DNA from: a virus
Length of the DNA stretch: 29,676 nucleotides
Virus record (IMG/VR): IMGVR_UViG_3300049450_000040
Coordinates: 1-29,676 of that record
Strand: one strand, 5' to 3'
Shown here: positions 4,369-28,439 of the stretch, piece by piece
Layout of the letters: each line of letters starts with the position of its first letter
How positions within the stretch are numbered: position 1 is the first letter of the stretch
Program-made: the position numbers and the translations under genes
Notes under the pieces: model-generated
Database searches by the model: none
The model's input: the letters and a program-made list of their open reading frames with translations, nothing else
Told to the model about the DNA's origin: nothing

Positions 4369-5061
4369 TTAGTGAAGCCTCTTCCCAAAGACTCCGGATG
4401 TTCCATCACCCGCCCAGTAGTATTCAATCCTCAACGCAGACCCTCCAGCGGCTGCGGCCTGGATTCTTACCGCCATCTGCATATCGTTCCCGGCAGATAT
4501 AGTCCCGTCATTGAACTGATGAACCCCGGCAGTCCCGGTTGCGTATCCGGCGATATATCCCGGAGAGTTGGTGTTATCGACATTTAACTGACTCGGAGTG
4601 GTCGAGTTCCAGTTTCCATTGGTGACATTGGCTGCAAGTAAGAACGTCGCGTCATTCGCTGTCAGGTTTGCAGGCGTAAGGGTGATGTTTGTAGAGACCG
4701 AGACAGAAGTAACCCTGTCCGCCGCCGCTGAAGGGGTGCTTTGATTGGCTCCTGTGTAGCAAGTGATGATCCCGTTAACATGTCCTGAGGCTGAGTAACC
4801 AAACCTAAAACTCCCATTCCCAGTAGTAGGTGCGGGGACAGCCCAGATCGAAACTAGAACATTCCCCGCCGACCTTGAGCTTGAGACCTGAGCCGGCGTC
4901 CCTCCTAGAGACCACGTAGCAGAAGTAACCGTTATGGTGGCTGAACTTATCGCCACCGCACCTATGATCGTTGGACTCAGACCTCCGCAACTGATCGTTA
5001 CCAGCGAATTAGTAGTCGTCGCCGGAGAGATATTGGCCGAGGCTGAAGAAGCAACGGCCAT
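4369..5061 (-). CDS. Beta-rich decoration-like protein, unknown
   Basis: This 230-residue protein starts MAVASSASANISPATTTNSL. It is almost wholly small residues (Ser, Thr, Ala, Gly, Asn, Val) alternating in beta-strand patterns, with a final RIEYYWAGDGTSGVFGKRLH. There is no signal peptide, so it is not exported by the Sec route. Its start codon shares a base with the portal stop (TAATG), giving tight coupling in the virion operon. Such proteins between portal and scaffold in phages are often capsid decoration or Ig-like surface proteins. I cannot assign a named family. Confidence 0.6.
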   Translation of the reverse strand: MAVASSASANISPATTTNSLVTISCGGLSPTIIGAVAISSATITVTSATWSLGGTPAQVSSSRSAGNVLVSIWAVPAPTTGNGSFRFGYSASGHVNGIITCYTGANQSTPSAAADRVTSVSVSTNITLTPANLTANDATFLLAANVTNGNWNSTTPSQLNVDNTNSPGYIAGYATGTAGVHQFNDGTISAGNDMQMAVRIQAAAAGGSALRIEYYWAGDGTSGVFGKRLH

Positions 5062-7328
5062 TATTGTTCGCTCATCTCCATCTCATAGACCTTTCCACTG
5101 GGCCCTTTCATCTTTCCTGTCCTTTTCTTCGGTTTGGCCTGAGCCTTCAAAGCCTCCCCAACACCTTTGAGTGCTTCGGCGAGTTCCTTATGGTCGGTCG
5201 CCCTAGAAGGCGCGTCTTTCTTCTCTTCCTTGGGTTTCTCTTTGAGAGATTTCTCAAGGTTATTCACCGCTTCAGCAACCTTCTGCATGTCGTTATAGAC
5301 CTTCTCGGAGGTCTGAAGACCTGCTTTTTCAAGATCAGCCACGATCTTCGTCAGTTTCGCCTCAAAGTCGTTCTGTATCTTCTGCCGTTGATTCGTAATC
5401 TCCTGCTGGTGTTGACCCTGTTCGGTCTGTTTCTCACCCAGTAAGTGAAGGGCTTGCTTATGTTGACCTGTTAGTTGTTGGAGTTGTTGGTTCATACCCA
5501 TGAGTAAGGCTTTAGCCTCCGGAGGCCAGTCGTTCATGTTCTTGCCCAAAACGCCCTGTAGTTGAGGCGGGAGCATCGCTGCGAGTCTTGTGGATATTTC
5601 CTCAGCCCCAGGCCAGTCCATGTTCTTCGCTATCAAATCCCCAATGATCGGACCCGACTGAGGGACGGCTTTCATAAAACCCAGCATAGAATCGGCTGCT
5701 TCAGCCCGTTTAGTGGCGTAGGAAGGCCCTATCGTCACCGCAACCGCATAAGTCCCTAGTTTGGGGTTGTAGAGCTTCTCCATCTTCCCCGTTAAGGGGT
5801 TATGTCTATCCTGATGAGGGACGCCTAGGCTGGGGTCGATTCTGACTTGATCTTCTGAATCGTCTTCTCTGAGGATGGTAAGGGATCGTGGGGTGTCGTA
5901 GATTTTGGGGATGATATCGATGAGGATTCTCCCCGTATGCCTGAGAGACCGCGCGAGATTATCGACATAGTGAAAGTTTCCAAGGTCGCCGGTACGCTTG
6001 AGCTCACGTAGAGCTTTCCCTGATTCGTCATAAAGTCTCTCCTGTAGGGTCGCATCAAACCTTATTCCGGTTGTAGCTTGCATATCCTGAGCAGCGGCGA
6101 TCTTCGCCTGTACCACACCAGCAGGAGGCCCGGCGAACTGCTGTCTCTGAGGGGGAGGGGCGGGCTTACCGCTTACAGAACTTGCCTTGTAAAGAAGATA
6201 CGGATACGCCTTGTCGTTGGCTTGTTTCCACCTCTGTTCATGACCTTCAACCTGCCCCTCCTCCATGATGTAGGGAGCTTTGGGCATCAAAGCTACTTGT
6301 TCAGTTTCTGAAGTAACCCAGTAGTTGTACATCCTCTGGGAGTCTTTGGCGTCTCGAATCAAACCAGCCAGGACGACCTTCCCCTCAACGTCAGTCTCAT
6401 CGCCTATGACTTTGACTATGGGTATCCACTTACCCAGCCAGTCGTTCTCCTCCAGAACCTGCTTACCGGACATTTTGCACCACTTGATCTTCTTGACCTG
6501 AACCTCTCTGGTATTTTCAGGCTCTTCAGTTTTTAGACTTTCGTCTAACTCATCCTCCCATCCAGTGTGACCGTTCTTTAGATGAACCAGCTTTCTTGTC
6601 TCGGTCTCGAAGTAGAAATACTCCGCTATCCGAACGTGAGACTGTGTAGTCCAGTTCTTGAACTCATCCCCCATACCCCCCTCTTCGTATTGCATGGGGT
6701 CTTTCCCAGGGAAGGTCGCCTCGAACTCAGCCCTCGGTATTAGGTCTGTGATAAACCCGAACTGAGCGTCTGATCCGTCCGGTTCCTGGAGGTCCGGATC
6801 GAGATAGACCCTAAAGGGGTTACGTATACGCCCGATTCGGATAACTTGATCAAAGCTATCCTCATCTTCATATTCGGTGAGGACTCGCCAATACCCCCAT
6901 CCGTTACTGACGGCGGAGTCAAAGCCTGTGTCATAGGCAACATCAGCATTACTTTGTCGCTCAATCTGGCGTATGAGCCCCTTGAGCATCTTCGCAGTAT
7001 GCGGGTCAGAACGATCTCCCTCCGGGGAGACGTTGATAGCGGGGCGGTTTTGTCTCTGGTCATTGGTAATTTGATGAACAAAGGTCTTCATCTTGTTGAC
7101 AGTCAGACAAGGCCTTTTCTGCGTCGTCCTGTCAGCCTTGATGGCATCGGGCCACTGATCCCCAGACTTGAACTTCAGGTCTTCAACTGCCATCTTCCTG
7201 TTGACCGCTTCAGCAGCTATGCACCTGTCGAACCTCTTCCTGACAAGTCTCAGGAACTCGTCATCATTCCTCGCCTTCTTCTCAGTCTTTGCAGAAGGGG
7301 CGCGGTCGGTTACAGCAGCTTCAGCCAC
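5061..7328 (-). CDS. Portal protein, P22 gp1-like
   Basis: This 755-residue protein (P22 gp1 is 725) carries the family's hallmark N-terminal region: KSGDQWPDAIK, then RPCLTVNKMKTFVHQITND and RPAINVSPEGD, followed by an RNPFRVYLDPDLQEPDGSDA segment. The C-terminal third (from about residue 610) is a long charged helical barrel region rich in Gln and Lys, ending KGPSGKVYEMEMSEQ. Twelve copies would form the ring at the packaging vertex, dock the terminase and pass DNA. The only in-frame start upstream of the conserved region is GTG at 7328, preceded by GGTGA and just downstream of an in-frame stop. It overlaps a 51-codon gene by 19 bases. Family identity is strong. Confidence 0.93.
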   Translation of the reverse strand: MAEAAVTDRAPSAKTEKKARNDDEFLRLVRKRFDRCIAAEAVNRKMAVEDLKFKSGDQWPDAIKADRTTQKRPCLTVNKMKTFVHQITNDQRQNRPAINVSPEGDRSDPHTAKMLKGLIRQIERQSNADVAYDTGFDSAVSNGWGYWRVLTEYEDEDSFDQVIRIGRIRNPFRVYLDPDLQEPDGSDAQFGFITDLIPRAEFEATFPGKDPMQYEEGGMGDEFKNWTTQSHVRIAEYFYFETETRKLVHLKNGHTGWEDELDESLKTEEPENTREVQVKKIKWCKMSGKQVLEENDWLGKWIPIVKVIGDETDVEGKVVLAGLIRDAKDSQRMYNYWVTSETEQVALMPKAPYIMEEGQVEGHEQRWKQANDKAYPYLLYKASSVSGKPAPPPQRQQFAGPPAGVVQAKIAAAQDMQATTGIRFDATLQERLYDESGKALRELKRTGDLGNFHYVDNLARSLRHTGRILIDIIPKIYDTPRSLTILREDDSEDQVRIDPSLGVPHQDRHNPLTGKMEKLYNPKLGTYAVAVTIGPSYATKRAEAADSMLGFMKAVPQSGPIIGDLIAKNMDWPGAEEISTRLAAMLPPQLQGVLGKNMNDWPPEAKALLMGMNQQLQQLTGQHKQALHLLGEKQTEQGQHQQEITNQRQKIQNDFEAKLTKIVADLEKAGLQTSEKVYNDMQKVAEAVNNLEKSLKEKPKEEKKDAPSRATDHKELAEALKGVGEALKAQAKPKKRTGKMKGPSGKVYEMEMSEQ

Positions 7329-8037: not shown

Positions 8038-9357
8038 TCACGCCGCCATCCAGGATTGGGAGTTATCGTCTTTGGAGTAGGTCACTATCTCAACCGCTTC
8101 TTTTGTTTGGATAGGACTGAGTTTATGCCCTATGGACAAGTATATATACGCCTTGGAAGCATGCGATGACCAATCATGAAAAGGTTCATCCGCAAAGCAG
8201 TACCGCTTTTCAAGCCAAGGATAGTGGTAAGCGCTCAATGCAGTTCTTCCTCGTTCAGTCCTTTTCGCGTCGAACCAGCAACGACTAAAGAATGCACGCG
8301 CGGCGTTGATGCAGTCTTGCCCTGTGTCCTTAAGGGTACGATCTTCGAATTTGAACCCAAGCGCCCTCGCCTGCTCCCGCGTCGATTTCCCATTAGCCGC
8401 AAAGTGATGCTGTTCGATGTCATGAGGACCGTTATGCGTACCCCAAACATAATCCATTCCCTGCAAGACTTTGACATAATGGTCAATCCCTATCCCTGTG
8501 CCTGAGTTTTCGTAGTAATCTATGACATGGACTTCCTTCCCCGCGTTCTGAGTGAACCAGATTGCCGTAGCATCTGATGTCCCTATATCCCACCATGTGT
8601 CTACAGGGTATTCTGGTTGGTAAGGAACCCCACATATCCTTCCCTCTTTCTCCGCCTTCTCCATCTGCCTTCCAAAGACCGACCCCTGCTGAACCCCTTC
8701 GAATGAACAGTAATACTCCTGTTGGATAAGCTCTTCACTCATCCCCTCCCGACGTTCCTTGTCAATGTCTGAGGGGTCGAGAGCCTTTGTCTGATCGATT
8801 GTAAGAACTTCGGCGAACCACTCAGGGTTACTCTTAGCCATTTGATACAGGCTGTATCCGTGGTTCTTCCCCCTGGGGGTGTAATCGAAAATGGCCCATC
8901 CACCATTCTCACGCAGAATTGGTCGCATGTAATCCCAGGCCCGAGGGTCTTGCATAGCGTATTCGCTAAAGACGCATCCGATGGGATTGGTTCCGAGTAC
9001 GGAATCGATATTGTCAGTCCCGATGAGCTGAATGGCTGAACCATTGACTAACTCTACCCGCAACTCCGTCTCGTTCTTGTTCTTGACGATCTCACGTGGG
9101 ATATGCCCCATGAAAGGAAATCCTTCCCTGTCTCTCCCATCCCATAGAACTTTCTTCGCCTGAGCATAAGTGGGGAACATATAGAAGTACGTTCCCACCC
9201 GTTGAAACGCTGCCTTGCAGACGTAGTTGATGAATGTCTTTTCCTTACCGCTTCGCCTGTGCCAGACCGCTACCGCCCTCTTAATGCCTGAGTCCAGTGC
9301 TTGTAGGATCGGGAGCTGGTAGGGCCTTGGAACATAGTTGAAAGGTATCGTCAGCAT
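8038..9357 (-). CDS. Terminase large subunit (packaging ATPase/nuclease)
   Basis: This 439-residue protein is the DNA-packaging motor. The ATPase half has a Walker A-like loop (WHRRSGKEKT, residues 32-41, the HRR[AS]GK variant of phage terminases), Walker B CVFSEYA (128-134, Glu132 catalytic) and a coupling motif FDYTPRG (157-163). The RuvC-like nuclease half starts at TWWDIGTSDATAIWF (Asp257 as first metal ligand), then GPHD (310-313) and HDWSSHASKAYIYL (394-407). In relatives the last motif usually reads SHAADAF or similar, so Lys402 replaces the usual Asp. The ATG at 9357 is supported by the homologous N-terminus (FNYVPRPYQLPIL), although no good ribosome site is visible. Confidence 0.92.
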   Translation of the reverse strand: MLTIPFNYVPRPYQLPILQALDSGIKRAVAVWHRRSGKEKTFINYVCKAAFQRVGTYFYMFPTYAQAKKVLWDGRDREGFPFMGHIPREIVKNKNETELRVELVNGSAIQLIGTDNIDSVLGTNPIGCVFSEYAMQDPRAWDYMRPILRENGGWAIFDYTPRGKNHGYSLYQMAKSNPEWFAEVLTIDQTKALDPSDIDKERREGMSEELIQQEYYCSFEGVQQGSVFGRQMEKAEKEGRICGVPYQPEYPVDTWWDIGTSDATAIWFTQNAGKEVHVIDYYENSGTGIGIDHYVKVLQGMDYVWGTHNGPHDIEQHHFAANGKSTREQARALGFKFEDRTLKDTGQDCINAARAFFSRCWFDAKRTERGRTALSAYHYPWLEKRYCFADEPFHDWSSHASKAYIYLSIGHKLSPIQTKEAVEIVTYSKDDNSQSWMAA

Positions 9358-10664: not shown

Positions 10665-10693
10665 GAAAAAAAGCCCCATCGAATGACAGGGCT
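10665..10693 (-). terminator. Intrinsic terminator ending the radical-SAM operon
   Basis: On the minus strand AGCCC, then TGT, CAT, a TCG loop, ATG and GGGCT form a hairpin (outer 5 bp, inner 3 bp after a bulge) followed by seven T (10666-10672). It lies 50 bases after the radical-SAM stop and just before the next gene's ribosome site. A second small hairpin, GCCAG...CTGGC, lies at 10699-10716. Confidence 0.75.
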
Positions 10694-10743
10694 CATGCCA
10701 GGGGAGGAACTGGCGGACTAATACAATAGGTTGTGGCATTTCA

Positions 10744-11721
10744 CTATGTTGCTACTAACTCTGGGGATGTGTCAACCTTTTCCTTCCACACGTCACACCC
10801 CTTGCAAATGCTTGTTTTCTCACCCAACAGGTGCTCTTGTCTCACCCTGTTCTGAATCGGTGAATTCCACAGTTCCGAAATACTCGAATCGTTAAGGTTT
10901 CCAACAGGATGCTTCTTGTTGTAATCGACATTACACCTTGGGACCGTCCCATCGGCGAAGATCACCATCAACGACCACAACGCTACACAAGGCTTGGGAT
11001 CGGTCCGACTCGGAACACCTTTCAACTGAACTCCCCAGTTATGAAGGTCTCGATAGTCTACGCGGTCGGTTTCTTTGACGAGACAATTCCAGGCTTTTTG
11101 ATATTCGGGCCATTCAGTATAGTTGTCTTTCTGTCTTATCATCCTCACCCAGACTTTGCACTTTGATTTAGTAGCGTTCCTCATCAAAATGAAGTTGTAG
11201 GCGTTCTCCATCACTTCTCTGAAATCCAACCCTACTCTGATTTTCTCGTAGACTTCTTTCTTCAAGGAGTCAATCGACAAGATGATCGAATCCAACCCCG
11301 CTTCTAGTAGGGCTAGAGTCTTGGCGTGATTGAGCAGCGCGACGTTCGTTGAAATCCCGACCTCTCTTACTCCGGCGGATTTCATCATCCTCACCCGCTC
11401 GGGGAGTTTCTTGTCCAACAACGGCTCACCGTCCCGGTATAAGTGGACCCTCAAGACTTCAGGATGATCTCGTATCTCATCGACGATATTCCTGAAAAGC
11501 CCATCGGACATAAGACCGTCTCTACGGTCCCAATCATCAATCGTGCACATCGGACACCTAGCGTTACAGGCGTTAACGGTCTCGATCTCGAAGAACCTGG
11601 GGAATGAGAGTAAGTCGTCATACGTCTCTAGAGGGGAGATTCGCCTTACAAGATACTCCCTTGATTCAAAGGCTTGAATAGATTTCCCCATGTAATCCTC
11701 GGGTCTTTTGTACCTTGGCAT
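10744..11721 (-). CDS. Radical SAM enzyme with SPASM/Twitch-like auxiliary-cluster domain
   Basis: This 325-residue protein has the 4Fe-4S site CNARCPMC (Cys52, Cys56, Cys59), a YRDGEPLL stretch (SAM-binding 'GEP' motif, 95-102) and a GISTN strand (122-126), so it should cleave SAM to a 5'-deoxyadenosyl radical. The C-terminal domain has Cys245, Cys263, Cys306 and Cys309 with FADGTVPRCNVDYN, VGNLNDSSISELWNS and ICKGC: the abbreviated, one-auxiliary-cluster form of SPASM. Such enzymes act on peptides, aminoglycosides or carbohydrates. It overlaps the dioxygenase gene by 56 bases; a second ATG at 11691 with GAGG is a better-placed start. It ends the operon, before a terminator. The substrate is unknown. 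Confidence 0.9.
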   Translation of the reverse strand: MPRYKRPEDYMGKSIQAFESREYLVRRISPLETYDDLLSFPRFFEIETVNACNARCPMCTIDDWDRRDGLMSDGLFRNIVDEIRDHPEVLRVHLYRDGEPLLDKKLPERVRMMKSAGVREVGISTNVALLNHAKTLALLEAGLDSIILSIDSLKKEVYEKIRVGLDFREVMENAYNFILMRNATKSKCKVWVRMIRQKDNYTEWPEYQKAWNCLVKETDRVDYRDLHNWGVQLKGVPSRTDPKPCVALWSLMVIFADGTVPRCNVDYNKKHPVGNLNDSSISELWNSPIQNRVRQEHLLGEKTSICKGCDVWKEKVDTSPELVAT

Positions 11722-12397
11722 TCACGTCGCAAACCCTTATATCTATTGAGACTCTAGTCCAAGGAGCTTTGTTGACGACTTGCCCGTGAACACAGGCTGA
11801 ATTGAAAATAATCGCTTCACCTACAAAACACGGCACCGGACTGCACAAGGCTTCGGTCTGAGCACTCATCTTCTTAGGAGCGTACCTGAAACCTAACCAG
11901 TGTTCATCAGAGCCCCTTTTCACTTGGTCGCTCTCTACCTGAACCCAAGGGTAAGCCTCATCAGATTCGTTGTGAGACCCCGCTATCATTCTCAACTCCC
12001 CACCTTGTATCGCATGAGTCAAAGGAGCCCACAATACCCACTCTTCAGTCGTCGCCCCGTAGTGAGTGTCCCGGTGAATCCCGATATTGTCCTCGGGGCG
12101 GTCTTTCCGAGCGACCCTGGTGTAAGGCTCTTTTTGGTAGAGCAGATTCTCAATCCCAGTGAAGTACTTGATCTTATCTAAATTTTCCTGGATTAAATCT
12201 TCCCATTCCCACATCAGGTGAACTCTCTTGCTCAACTCCACCCATGAGTCAATAAAGTCTTCGGGGGAGTAATTCTCCAAAGGCCCCGTACGGGCTTCGA
12301 TCCTCGCCTTCAGACGAAAGATTGAATCTCCATCCAACTTGAACCGCTGGAACCCGACCTTCGCTAGAGCTACTTCTTGAACCGGTGTACTCCCCAT
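11666..12397 (-). CDS. PhyH-type Fe(II)/2-oxoglutarate dioxygenase
   Basis: This 243-residue protein has the facial triad as HRDTHYG (His108, Asp110) and HGQVVN (His204), with Arg215 in TRVSIDIRV placed to bind 2-oxoglutarate. The segment HRDTHYGATTEEWVLWAPL resembles the phytanoyl-CoA-dioxygenase-like oxygenases found in scattered surface-carbohydrate clusters (the 'sporadic carbohydrate cluster' oxygenases). It would hydroxylate or oxidatively rearrange a small substrate in the cytoplasm. The ATG at 12397 follows AAGGGGA and lies 28 bases inside the reductase gene. All catalytic residues are present, so it looks functional. The link to carbohydrate is inference from family and neighbours. 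Confidence 0.85.
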   Translation of the reverse strand: MGSTPVQEVALAKVGFQRFKLDGDSIFRLKARIEARTGPLENYSPEDFIDSWVELSKRVHLMWEWEDLIQENLDKIKYFTGIENLLYQKEPYTRVARKDRPEDNIGIHRDTHYGATTEEWVLWAPLTHAIQGGELRMIAGSHNESDEAYPWVQVESDQVKRGSDEHWLGFRYAPKKMSAQTEALCSPVPCFVGEAIIFNSACVHGQVVNKAPWTRVSIDIRVCDVNAKVQKTRGLHGEIYSSL

Positions 12398-12852
12398 ATT
12401 TTCCCCTTGCCTATTTTCTCCAAGAGCTTACACAAGTCCTCTATTCTGTCGGGAGTTACTTTATCCGGCCTGACAATAGCGAGTCTTTCATACGGAACCA
12501 CGGCTCGCAAGCCCATTTCAGCAAATCTTTTCTGATCCCCGTAGGCGGTGTGCCCCGACCACTCGGCAGCTTCCGAAGATATATAGACGATGAACGAATC
12601 CTTGAATCGGTTGGCAATCCGAATGGGCGAATCGACATTTATTGACCAGGCGTCTTCGTCGATTTCACAATCCCTAAACTTTGTCTTTGCTGCAACGATA
12701 AAGACAACCTCGCTGGCAGGAAGACTTGAGGGATCGTCTGTAAGCTGGAAGTACGGGCGGGCTCCAGTATGCCGTGAGGTCCCGGTACAGTTTTTGAAGT
12801 GCTTGAATAACGCACCCCCAAGTTGTCCGTCCTTGCCAATGAGAAGCCACAT
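12370..12852 (-). CDS. Short-chain (extended SDR/RmlD-like) nucleotide-sugar reductase, compact
   Basis: This 160-residue protein starts MWLLIGKDGQLGGALFKHF, a GxxGxxG nucleotide-binding loop (Gly6-Gly12) as in dTDP-4-dehydrorhamnose reductase (RmlD). Later come VVFIVAAKT (NAD-domain strand 4), YISSEAAEW (90-98) and the catalytic pair Tyr104-x3-Lys108 (YGDQK). RmlD relatives are about 290 residues; this one lacks the substrate domain, ending soon after a VRPD segment. It may be a minimal enzyme, a remnant, or need a partner. The ATG at 12852 is chosen over the TTG at 12858. The start lies inside the preceding arginine-rich gene and the end overlaps the dioxygenase gene. Confidence 0.75.
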   Translation of the reverse strand: MWLLIGKDGQLGGALFKHFKNCTGTSRHTGARPYFQLTDDPSSLPASEVVFIVAAKTKFRDCEIDEDAWSINVDSPIRIANRFKDSFIVYISSEAAEWSGHTAYGDQKRFAEMGLRAVVPYERLAIVRPDKVTPDRIEDLCKLLEKIGKGKIWGVHRFKK

Positions 12853-13124
12853 AACCAATCTACCTTTGTTTTAACCCTTCGTTTCCTTGCGTAATACTCT
12901 CGATGGTAAAGCCTGAGCCTTTCCTTGTTTCTCTGCGCCCAAGCCCCATAAAGCCGTTTCTGGTTTTCCTTGTGTCTCAGCCTTCTTGCTTTGGCCTTAT
13001 CCTTGTTCTTGTAGTACCACAAACGGTTATAGAGACGGGTTTTCTCCCTCTTTACCTCCACCGGGTCCAATACCCCGGAGAGGATCACCGTCCGTCTAAC
13101 GTTCGCTCCGCTTCGCTTATCCAT
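12639..13124 (-). CDS. Arginine/lysine/tyrosine-rich basic protein with long overlap
   Basis: The first 90 residues (MDKRSGANVRRTVILSG...) look coding: a long basic stretch with RLWYYKNKDKAKARRLRHKE and YHREYYARKRR, the type of charged tail found next to phage HNH proteins. From residue about 92 the frame runs for 214 bases over the reductase gene in another phase and becomes low-quality, Ser/Thr-rich. Either the real product is 161 residues with an extended overlapping tail, or an indel near 12855 removed the original stop. The start at 13124 overlaps the upstream gene by 40 bases. Nucleic-acid binding is plausible from charge alone. Confidence 0.5.
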   Translation of the reverse strand: MDKRSGANVRRTVILSGVLDPVEVKREKTRLYNRLWYYKNKDKAKARRLRHKENQKRLYGAWAQRNKERLRLYHREYYARKRRVKTKVDWLCGFSLARTDNLGVRYSSTSKTVPGPHGILEPARTSSLQTIPQVFLPARLSLSLQQRQSLGIVKSTKTPGQ

Positions 13125-13276
13125 CTCAACGCCAGTTCTAGCTCGAAGATCGCCTGTTCGATGTAGTATCTCCCGTTGCCCAAATGAACGGGCTTCATGT
13201 GGATAAGTCTTAACTCTTCCTCGGATTGGGCAAGGAACTTGTGCGCCCTTGAGAAGTAGGAGGACCAGTCGCTCAT
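13085..13276 (-). CDS. Small helical protein, unknown
   Basis: This 63-residue protein (MSDWSSYFSRAHKFLAQSEE) is predicted helical, with an ELELALRWISEAERTLDGR end. Its ATG overlaps the previous stop as ATGA, so it is coupled to the KGG-type gene. It precedes the arginine-rich gene in the operon. There is no recognised domain. Confidence 0.6.
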   Translation of the reverse strand: MSDWSSYFSRAHKFLAQSEEELRLIHMKPVHLGNGRYYIEQAIFELELALRWISEAERTLDGR

Positions 13277-13428
13277 GTCGTAATCTTGACAGTCTTGGTC
13301 CGTTTTCGTTTAGGGGCGCTACCGGCTTTTTTGGCTATCTCCGACCGTCTTTCAGGAGTTAAAGCCTTGGCGCGCTTCCTGCCGCCTTCCTGACCCCATT
13401 TCTGGAACTGCTCTCTGGTGAACTCCAT
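13273..13428 (-). CDS. Small basic 'GG-R-A-L-P-E-R' repeat-type protein, first gene of the operon
   Basis: This 51-residue protein (MEFTREQFQKWGQEGGRKRA) contains GGRKRAKALTPERRSEIAKKAG, a motif shared by many short phage and bacterial proteins of unknown role, followed by a very basic tail (KRKRTKTVKITT). GGGG lies just before the ATG at 13428; the stop overlaps the next ATG. It is the promoter-proximal gene of the operon that ends with the radical-SAM enzyme. The strong positive charge suggests nucleic-acid binding (inference). Confidence 0.6.
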   Translation of the reverse strand: MEFTREQFQKWGQEGGRKRAKALTPERRSEIAKKAGSAPKRKRTKTVKITT

Positions 13429-26567: not shown

Positions 26568-26691
26568 TCTTATCTTTCGGTATTGCTTCCTGAACCAACC
26601 AAGGCACTTCAGAGTCAAGGAACGCTTGTAACTTCTCTATCTCCCTCTTGTGAAACTCTATGTCCCTCAATACCACTTCTAGAAATGTCAT
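26551..26691 (-). CDS. Small helical protein after tailspike
   Basis: This 46-residue protein (MTFLEVVLRDIEFHKREIEK) is one amphipathic helix and then a Pro-containing tail. The ATG shares a base with the tailspike stop (TAATG) and the end overlaps the endolysin start by 17 bases. A coupled position makes a chance frame unlikely. The function is unknown. Confidence 0.6.
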   Translation of the reverse strand: MTFLEVVLRDIEFHKREIEKLQAFLDSEVPWLVQEAIPKDKNESQQ

Positions 26692-28439
26692 TATCCGACC
26701 CTCGACGTTTCACGAAACAAGTTTGCTCCACCGTCATACATCAGAGTGAGAACTCCAAGCCCAGCGCCTCCAGAAACATAATCCGCCCCGGTAGAGGTCA
26801 AAATTGGCCTGAAGGTTGTCGATGCCGCTTGGTTGTTTTTCACAGTCACAGCCCCGCCCTCAAGAAAGATTCTGAAAATATCTCCATCTACCCAGCCCAC
26901 ATTGTTGATGAGATTTATTTGCGTTGTTGCTGTTAGAGCAAAGTTGTTTCCATCCATGCCCAACGTAAGATTATTTGCCGTGGCAACATTGGCCCCTCTT
27001 TGAGTCCTACGACGAGAGCCGAATTTAGGCGATACCCATTCGGTGTTGGTGCCATTGTCAGTAATCTTTCCTGCGGAAGCTGGGTCAACTTCAAGTTTTG
27101 TAAAAGAAGCACCGGAATCAATCTGAATATCCTGTCCAGTATTAGCTTCACAGTCTCCTCCATAGACTTTGTTCAAGGTCGAGCCGGTTGCGAATCTAAT
27201 CCCTACGCCACCATTTGCCTCGCACAAAGCGCCTATGACAGTATTTTCTACAGAACTTTCAAATCTAAGACCGTCCTCTGAATTTGATTGAACAAAAGGA
27301 CAAATAATAGTGCCTGCGTTAGCGTCGATACTAGCTCCAGCGTCATGGACGTAAATACCACGTCTACCGTTGAAGGAACATACCGGCTTTATAAGAAGGA
27401 AGATATTAGAGTTAGTTCCGTCAACATCAGCACCGATACGGATACCGTCATTGCCCATTAGATTAGACATCACCTGATCGAGGATGACGTTGTTCGCTAG
27501 GACTACGATTCCGTTGCCAGTGTTTCCTGCTTGTCCGAGGACGCCACCACCCGACCATGTAGCGCCGTTGATTGTGATATTTGCGGCAGCAGTAGTCATT
27601 GTGGACTTCTTAAGCAGGTAAGAGCCGGGAAGGTCTGTAGCCGTTACCGCGCGCTTCCCTTGGAACACGAAGCGCACATTTCTCGAATGCGTGATCGTGG
27701 AACTGATGAGATAGCCAAGCGGTGCAGCCGGGAAAAGCAAATCTGATCCTGACGGACAGTTGTCGTGAGCAGCCTGTATCGCAGCTGTATCATCCGTTAC
27801 CCCGTCTCCCTTGGCTCCGAACCTTCGGACACTAACAAAATTTGGCAGAGAATCATTGACAGGATTTATGATCCCGTAATTAGTAGCGCTCAACCCTGAA
27901 TCTATTCCAGTGGTGTCAGAAGCTATTCCTATCGTGGTCGTTGAGGTTGAAAACGCAGAACTGGTGATCGTCGAGTAAAGCGTCCCCGCTGTGTTGACGG
28001 TCTTCAATCTTCTGCCGGTAGTGAAGACTCCGGTCTGATCCGCGCCAGAGAAGGTGAAGGTAGACCCGTTGACAAAGGTCGCAGAAAGCCCAGAAGGCAC
28101 CCACTCCGTCTGAAAACTGGAAGGGTCGTTTATCCCCGAGATGTTATCTCTTGACCAATACGGAGAAGCTGGTGGGTCGGTGTCGTTTGAAGGGGCGAGG
28201 ACGAACTTCGCCGGAAGTCCTGCGGGTATCCAAACCTCCCCTCCCTGATTACCCCCTGAGTCCAATACCAGTGGATTGGTCCAGGTCGGTACCCCGGTGT
28301 TGTCGGTGAACATGTTCTGCTTCGTAGAAGTCCCGGCCTGATAGCAGAACAAAAGCCCCCCAGCCGCAGGGACGTTACCCCCAGGGATGAATTGGGTCAC
28401 ATTCAACGGTGCTGGAGCTAGATAGACAGTGGTTGACAT
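26691..28439 (-). CDS. Tailspike with pectate-lyase-type beta-helix
   Basis: This 582-residue protein has three regions. Residues 1-200 form an anchor (VTQFIPGGNVPAAGGLLFCY, VLAPSNDTDPPASPYW) that recurs in the fibre at 28799. At about 203-220 VRRFGAKGDGVTDDTAAIQA begins a right-handed beta-helix of the pectate-lyase-3 group, continuing with Gly/Asn-rich coils (GNDGIRIGAD, RRGIYVHDAGAS, SEDGLRFESS). The last 110 residues are beta-rich. It would bind and probably cut a host surface polysaccharide. The ATG at 28439 overlaps the -35 box of the plus-strand moron gene. Confidence 0.85.
   Translation of the reverse strand: MSTTVYLAPAPLNVTQFIPGGNVPAAGGLLFCYQAGTSTKQNMFTDNTGVPTWTNPLVLDSGGNQGGEVWIPAGLPAKFVLAPSNDTDPPASPYWSRDNISGINDPSSFQTEWVPSGLSATFVNGSTFTFSGADQTGVFTTGRRLKTVNTAGTLYSTITSSAFSTSTTTIGIASDTTGIDSGLSATNYGIINPVNDSLPNFVSVRRFGAKGDGVTDDTAAIQAAHDNCPSGSDLLFPAAPLGYLISSTITHSRNVRFVFQGKRAVTATDLPGSYLLKKSTMTTAAANITINGATWSGGGVLGQAGNTGNGIVVLANNVILDQVMSNLMGNDGIRIGADVDGTNSNIFLLIKPVCSFNGRRGIYVHDAGASIDANAGTIICPFVQSNSEDGLRFESSVENTVIGALCEANGGVGIRFATGSTLNKVYGGDCEANTGQDIQIDSGASFTKLEVDPASAGKITDNGTNTEWVSPKFGSRRRTQRGANVATANNLTLGMDGNNFALTATTQINLINNVGWVDGDIFRIFLEGGAVTVKNNQAASTTFRPILTSTGADYVSGGAGLGVLTLMYDGGANLFRETSRVG

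Follow-up and report, generated by a model that had tools for sequence, protein, structure and literature searches.

Operons for O-antigen conversion occur in P22-like phages (PMC2629481), and other phage genes for surface sugars have been described: lipopolysaccharide (LPS)-type sugar clusters and PhyH-like proteins in cyanophages (PMC3037559), LPS-related genes and radical S-adenosylmethionine (radical-SAM) cassettes in pelagimyophages (PMC7029224), and pseI among listed phage auxiliary genes (PMC6359870). The closest characterised enzyme, BtrN, is a twitch radical-SAM protein that performs a two-electron oxidation of an aminocyclitol and holds its auxiliary cluster on four Cys residues (PMC9012708). 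Here we describe a cassette in the virus record IMGVR_UViG_3300049450_000040 (the whole 29.7-kb stretch, positions 1 to 29,676, being the window), which belongs to a P22-like phage as judged by its portal, terminase large subunit, scaffold and head proteins, and tailspike. The last three genes of a minus-strand operon encode a compact RmlD-like reductase, a PhyH-type 2-oxoglutarate (2OG)-Fe(II) oxygenase and a radical-SAM enzyme, and are followed by a terminator-like hairpin. We estimate a probability of roughly 0.5 that the cassette is a nucleotide-sugar (or lipid-linked sugar) tailoring set that alters a host surface glycan and so excludes rival phages.

The locus resembles the gtrABC operons of P22-like phages in phage type, in the polysaccharide-binding tailspike and in its compact accessory operon, whose products would change a sugar of the surface. 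It differs in that no GtrA was found in the window phage, and in that the sugar itself would be remodelled by radical, reductive and oxidative steps rather than modified by glucosyl transfer. Like the cyanophage and pelagimyophage clusters, it consists of phage-borne, probable surface-sugar genes of the PhyH-like oxygenase or radical-SAM cassette kind, a likeness of gene type; those clusters are long and lie in large T4-like phages, whereas this is a minimal three-enzyme set in a P22-like phage of about 40 kb. The initial annotation knew of no described phage system of this make-up. That holds for the particular combination, since the literature searched (most subscription literature lay outside it) contained no description of the reductase/radical-SAM core or of the trio; it does not hold for the general type, which is not new because genes for LPS sugars, PhyH-like proteins and cassettes with radical-SAM enzymes were already on record from phages. 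The same search returned nothing on the term "sporadic carbohydrate cluster" and no paper linking phages with pseudaminic acid and auxiliary metabolic genes.

Six minus-strand genes, each overlapping the next, extend from 13428 to 10744, flanked by a NinG-like gene on one side and the terminase gene on the other. The features of the cassette and of the surrounding phage are as follows:

10744..11721, minus strand: radical-SAM enzyme, 325 aa, with a twitch-type four-Cys auxiliary domain (PF04055, PF13186)
11666..12397, minus strand: PhyH-type 2OG-Fe(II) oxygenase, 243 aa (PF05721, 22.6 bits; H108xD110, H204, R215)
12370..12852, minus strand: compact RmlD-like short-chain dehydrogenase/reductase (SDR), 160 aa (GxxGxxG and YxxxK; PF04321 18.9 bits, below cut-off)
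12639..13124, minus strand: third gene, an open reading frame (ORF) for a small basic protein
13085..13276, minus strand: second small gene, 63 aa, function not assigned (ORF; no family match)
13273..13428, minus strand: first small gene, 51 aa, function not assigned (ORF; weak PHROG 2384/12127 match; 4-base overlap with the next gene)
10671..10694, minus strand: terminator-like hairpin and T run (10-pair stem at 10694-10671)
8038..9357, minus strand: terminase large subunit, downstream of the cassette (PHROG 2, 99.6 bits)
5061..7328, minus strand: P22-like portal protein, marking the phage type (PF16510, 581 bits)
26691..28439, minus strand: pectate-lyase-like tailspike, probable surface-polysaccharide receptor protein (PF12708, 38.3 bits, and PHROG tail spike matches)

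This layout agrees with the initial annotation, which had described a compact operon of six overlapping minus-strand genes ending in an intrinsic terminator and had credited all three enzymes with full catalytic motifs, including a four-Cys auxiliary domain in the radical-SAM enzyme; the motif residues were found in each. The radical-SAM enzyme scored 59.7 bits with PF04055 (cut-off 29.5) and 45.6 bits with PF13186 (cut-off 21.5), placing it among the radical-SAM and SPASM/twitch proteins. It contains the radical-cluster motif C52x3C56x2C59 and four auxiliary Cys residues, C245, C263, C306 and C309. In an alignment of 14 family sequences C52, C56, C59, C245 and C263 were invariant, and C306 and C309 were present in every full-length member. 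Comparison of the family profile with the PDB placed BtrN first (E 1e-14) and aligned each of the four auxiliary Cys residues; by this alignment the enzyme is of the BtrN twitch type, having four Cys ligands for a single predicted auxiliary [4Fe-4S] cluster. Its predicted structure (predicted local distance difference test, pLDDT, 78) lay closest in fold to BtrN (Z 20.2), DesII (Z 19.8) and BlsE (Z 19.1), all of which act on cyclitols or sugars. The window enzyme thus shares with BtrN, DesII and BlsE, all three of them enzymes of carbohydrate-like substrates, a twitch-type fold and the aligned three radical and four auxiliary Cys residues. It differs from them in overall sequence (about 20-22% identity), in having Trp where BtrN has Arg152, and in its setting in a phage with an RmlD-like reductase and a PhyH oxygenase as partners. 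Annotated phages contained only distant matches to it (22-32%), and plasmids none. A defence system was considered and rejected: the PADLOC matches were weak, to pVip only, and confined to the generic radical-SAM part.

The two partner enzymes are more divergent from their named families. The SDR has the motifs G6xxG9xxG12 and Y104xxxK108, both retained in its counterparts from the phage loci L005 and L021. The initial annotation called it a compact RmlD-like reductase, a description that its motifs bear out although its scores lie under the RmlD cut-offs (PF04321 cut-off 27; TIGR01214 17.5 bits, cut-off 224). At about half the length of RmlD, it aligned to the N-terminal third only, and it retains the part that binds the nucleotide and carries out catalysis but has no C-terminal substrate domain. 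The oxygenase narrowly exceeded the PhyH cut-off (22 bits) with a complete HxD...H...R set, again as first annotated. By its partial match to TIGR04324, the family of sporadic carbohydrate cluster oxygenases, it is a distant relative of those proteins.

Short patterns were used to search 84,980 genomes of bacteria and archaea for relatives of the radical-SAM enzyme. Nine close members (52-57% identity) came from Alphaproteobacteria, Prochlorococcus, Planctomycetota and Elusimicrobia, together with two more distant matches; with phages included, identity across the family ranged from 52 to 68%. The family is rare and sporadic in bacteria, occurring in 2/385, 1/292, 2/199 and 6/294 sampled genomes (about 0.3-2%, centre genomes included). 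At every close, uncut bacterial locus an RmlD-like reductase directly adjoins the radical-SAM gene or is separated from it by one cupin gene; Skermanella stibiiresistens is a bacterium in which the two are adjacent. The distance between the two was 22-658 bases in the seven bacterial loci with enough flank (the query locus not being counted); if the reductase were placed at random in the same seven stretches, the chance of its falling within 700 bases in all of them would be about 6e-8, a rough figure that ignores the clustering of sugar genes. At one locus (L013:6483-7934) an RmlD-like reductase and a cupin form a single 483-aa ORF directly upstream of the radical-SAM gene.

Other neighbours of the radical-SAM gene (in L010-L018, L040 and L041) include RmlD-like and related sugar reductases, cupins, Zn-alcohol dehydrogenases, sugar epimerases, UDP-galactopyranose-mutase-like enzymes, kinases, HAD phosphatases and methyltransferases, and by this gene content the bacterial loci are classed as surface-carbohydrate clusters. 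In Prochlorococcus L015 a TIGR04324 oxygenase (218.6 bits) stands within two genes after the radical-SAM gene and is itself followed by a TIGR04323 protein (58.7 bits), and homologues of both likewise follow the radical-SAM gene in Prochlorococcus L014; the full-length reductase adjoining the L015 radical-SAM gene is 31% identical to the window SDR. Thus downstream of a relative of the window enzyme, and at most three genes away, lies a full member of each TIGR family, and the window oxygenase is itself related to one of them. The window cassette differs in the low score of its oxygenase and in having no TIGR04323 protein, and the two models do not name the radical-SAM family. L015 and L018 each combine reductase, 2OG oxygenase and radical-SAM enzyme, and in L011 the three form a looser grouping. 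A neighbourhood search had been proposed at the outset, with the idea that the three genes might never be co-located elsewhere; instead, reductase and radical-SAM gene recur together almost always, and the trio is present in several bacterial clusters of carbohydrate type.

Among 2.9 million viral contigs, the radical-SAM family was found in four phage lineages: the window phage, a sister phage, and the phages of L007 and L021. All four also have a compact RmlD-like reductase. When viral contigs were scanned with the compact reductase, the same four lineages alone came up, which is weak independent evidence, as the last query included those sequences. The sister phage, represented by two near-identical contigs, is 81% identical to the window phage in its portal and 69% in its terminase. 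Its cassette contains an SDR (57-60% identical, L005) and a radical-SAM enzyme (63-68%), with a CmcI/rhamnosyl-type methyltransferase where the window has the oxygenase. In the L007 phage, which has an integrase, the radical-SAM gene is the last in a pseudaminic-acid-type operon (PseB 297, PseI 251, WbuX 235 and WbuZ 242 bits), and another RmlD-like gene lies elsewhere. The L021 phage, also with an integrase, has a compact reductase (37-41% identical to the window SDR), a glycosyltransferase-like gene, the radical-SAM gene, a full RmlD gene and a B12-radical-SAM gene, all beside head genes. A methyltransferase is common to the window, sister and L007 phages. In a tree of the radical-SAM family, the window, sister and L007 phages formed one clade (support 95/94) with L021 apart, a pattern that suggests at least some transfer of the gene from phage to phage. 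The conserved phage unit is the reductase with the radical-SAM enzyme, and the oxygenase is an optional component added in the window phage. Hence the expectation that a trio would recur in other phages was borne out for the reductase/radical-SAM pair but not for the exact trio, which was found in the window phage only.

The first reading had offered a host surface sugar, a small molecule, the phage's own DNA or the virion as possible targets of the pathway. A surface-carbohydrate pathway is well supported, because the bacterial and phage neighbourhoods and the structural relatives of the radical-SAM enzyme all point to sugars; DNA and small molecules gained no support. A sugar is therefore strongly indicated as the substrate. 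In the reaction order that we infer, the radical-SAM enzyme would use a 5'-deoxyadenosyl radical to take a hydrogen atom from a sugar carbon, and an electron would pass to the four-Cys auxiliary cluster to give a keto sugar, in a BtrN-like dehydrogenation; alternatively, this step may be an epimerisation of the sugar carbon. The compact reductase, with NAD(P)H, would reduce the keto sugar or set its configuration, and the oxygenase would hydroxylate the reductase product. The altered sugar would then be placed on the host surface polysaccharide, the probable target of the tailspike, and the changed receptor would exclude competing phages, much as happens when P22-like phages convert the O-antigen. 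That the sugar goes to the host surface, and that the phage gains by it, are likewise proposals; we favour them because the tailspike implies a polysaccharide receptor and operons for O-antigen conversion are known from P22-like phages.

Several observations weigh against this reading. The oxygenase scored 37.9 bits with TIGR04324 (residues 105-231), far from the cut-off of 150; apart from one 24% match, no close relative of it was found in viral contigs beyond the window phage, in annotated phages, in plasmids or in 299 Pseudomonadota genomes; and its predicted structure was unusable (pLDDT 39). No member of the radical-SAM family has a known substrate. In this family Trp (W229, in an LHNWGGQL-type motif) replaces the substrate-contact residue Arg152 of BtrN; the substrate pocket is thus a different one, and the substrate should differ from that of BtrN. 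The fold by itself leaves the substrate unfixed, since viperin-like and peptide-modifying enzymes trail the best matches by less than two Z units and are nearly tied with them. No integrase was found in the roughly 41 kb of the window phage. A GtrA flippase (PF04138) had no match in the two contigs of the window phage or in related phages, contigs that may be incomplete. Finally, a family 2 glycosyltransferase (GT2) and a methyltransferase of the window phage sit among virion genes, an arrangement that fits virion glycosylation equally well.

Because of that arrangement, virion glycosylation is a serious rival and the main one, though we consider it rather unlikely. Here the phage's GT2 would put the tailored sugar on capsid or tail proteins, changing their stability, recognition or adsorption. 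The double-GT2 gene and the methyltransferase lie between GroES-like/head genes on one side and P22 gp4-like/tail genes on the other, the sister phage has kept the GT2, the L021 cassette stands among glycosyltransferase-like and head genes, and mycobacteriophage glycosyltransferases are linked to capsid glycosylation (PMC11256854). By contrast, the window cassette itself lies outside the virion module, the L007 phage has no GT2, and bacterial relatives carry the same enzymes in surface-sugar clusters without phage genes. The GT2 protein has 739 aa and two GT2 domains (L031:8569-10788, from the same phage as the window). The methyltransferase (L031:7299-7838) is a homologue of the gene that stands third in the sister-phage cassette.

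That the cassette is a passenger ("moron") acquired from a sugar cluster of a host and now without a role appears improbable. The exact trio is confined to one phage, and the sister phage has different content, as might be expected of a passenger; however, the motifs are intact, the radical-SAM enzyme and SDR remain 57-68% identical in the sister phage with all cluster Cys residues kept, and three phage radical-SAM enzymes share a clade (95/94), indicating that phages have retained the genes through long divergence. Modification of a peptide or small molecule, as by enzymes of ribosomally synthesized and post-translationally modified peptides or by viperins, for instance in defence or counter-defence, is more doubtful still. 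The radical-SAM profile is similar to those of many SPASM/twitch maturases and, weakly, of prokaryotic viperins, and the SuiB and viperin folds are close; yet all such NCBIfam matches fall far under the family cut-offs, the viperin matches span the generic radical-SAM part only, bacterial relatives lie in carbohydrate clusters, and no precursor-peptide gene turned up, although no search aimed at one was made. Phages employ 2OG oxygenases, radical-SAM enzymes and glycosyltransferases in base modification, but it is very improbable that the oxygenase and radical-SAM enzyme hypermodify the bases of phage DNA, as the oxygenase is PhyH-type rather than TET/JBP, the neighbours and relatives of the radical-SAM enzyme are carbohydrate rather than nucleotide genes, and the reductase is not known to take part in any base-modification pathway.

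Returning to sugar tailoring, we tentatively suggest, while judging it somewhat doubtful, that a minimal core of radical-SAM enzyme and RmlD-like reductase, joined by either an oxygenase or a methyltransferase as interchangeable parts, gives a host or virion glycan an oxidised or epimerised sugar of a kind not yet described, as a distinct class of phage conversion, and that sporadic surface clusters of bacteria use this core to build an unknown sugar. If so, phages would alter surface sugars by radical chemistry on the sugar itself, beyond adding glucose or acetyl groups, using a two-enzyme core small enough to pass between phages. That the radical-SAM family is rare and yet, in close members and where the contig permits, adjoined by a reductase would point to a defined two-enzyme reaction and offer a route to a new bacterial surface sugar.

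The initial annotation had allowed that the three genes might sit together through mis-assembly of a single contig. An independently assembled contig, G005 (31.8 kb), represents the same phage (99.93% identity over 19.5 kb) and shows zero differences from the window over positions 10665-13428, and the G+C content of the cassette (0.48-0.51) matches the remainder of the contig. Because the second contig is identical over the cassette and its composition is like that of its surroundings, mis-assembly is ruled out as far as sequence can do so. G005 extends the window by about 11.5 kb of virion genes; our survey of the phage thus covers about 41 kb, which is not proven to be the complete genome. 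A nucleotide search of the window against annotated phages gave zero matches.

Some gene boundaries in the operon merit comment. Translation of the radical-SAM gene probably starts at ATG 11691 rather than at 11721, since GAGG stands just upstream of the former. The third ORF (13124-12639) enters the SDR gene by 214 bases in a different frame; because its shorter counterpart in the sister phage (L005:1519-1836) ends where the SDR gene begins, the last ~70 residues are probably read-through. A terminator scan found as many such sites in the real as in shuffled sequence, so the support for the hairpin comes from its position after the last gene.

Three other viral loci have further genes of interest. 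The tail region of the sister phage (L035:9453-10058) encodes a 2OG-type protein, Asp/Asn-hydroxylase-like by eye and with a weak cupin match, that adjoins a cupin. The operon of the L007 phage (L007:3259-10921, IMGVR_UViG_3300045975_000024) comprises WbuX/WbuZ acetamidino-type genes, PseB, a short PseC-like gene, PseI, a CMP-transferase-like gene, a GNAT gene and a Pse-associated methylase, several of the enzymes being shorter than the bacterial models. Another stretch of viral contig (L009, IMGVR_UViG_3300020202_000090) contains several B12-type radical-SAM genes, a distant twitch radical-SAM gene, a glycosyltransferase and methyltransferases, and is possibly another phage glycan cluster.

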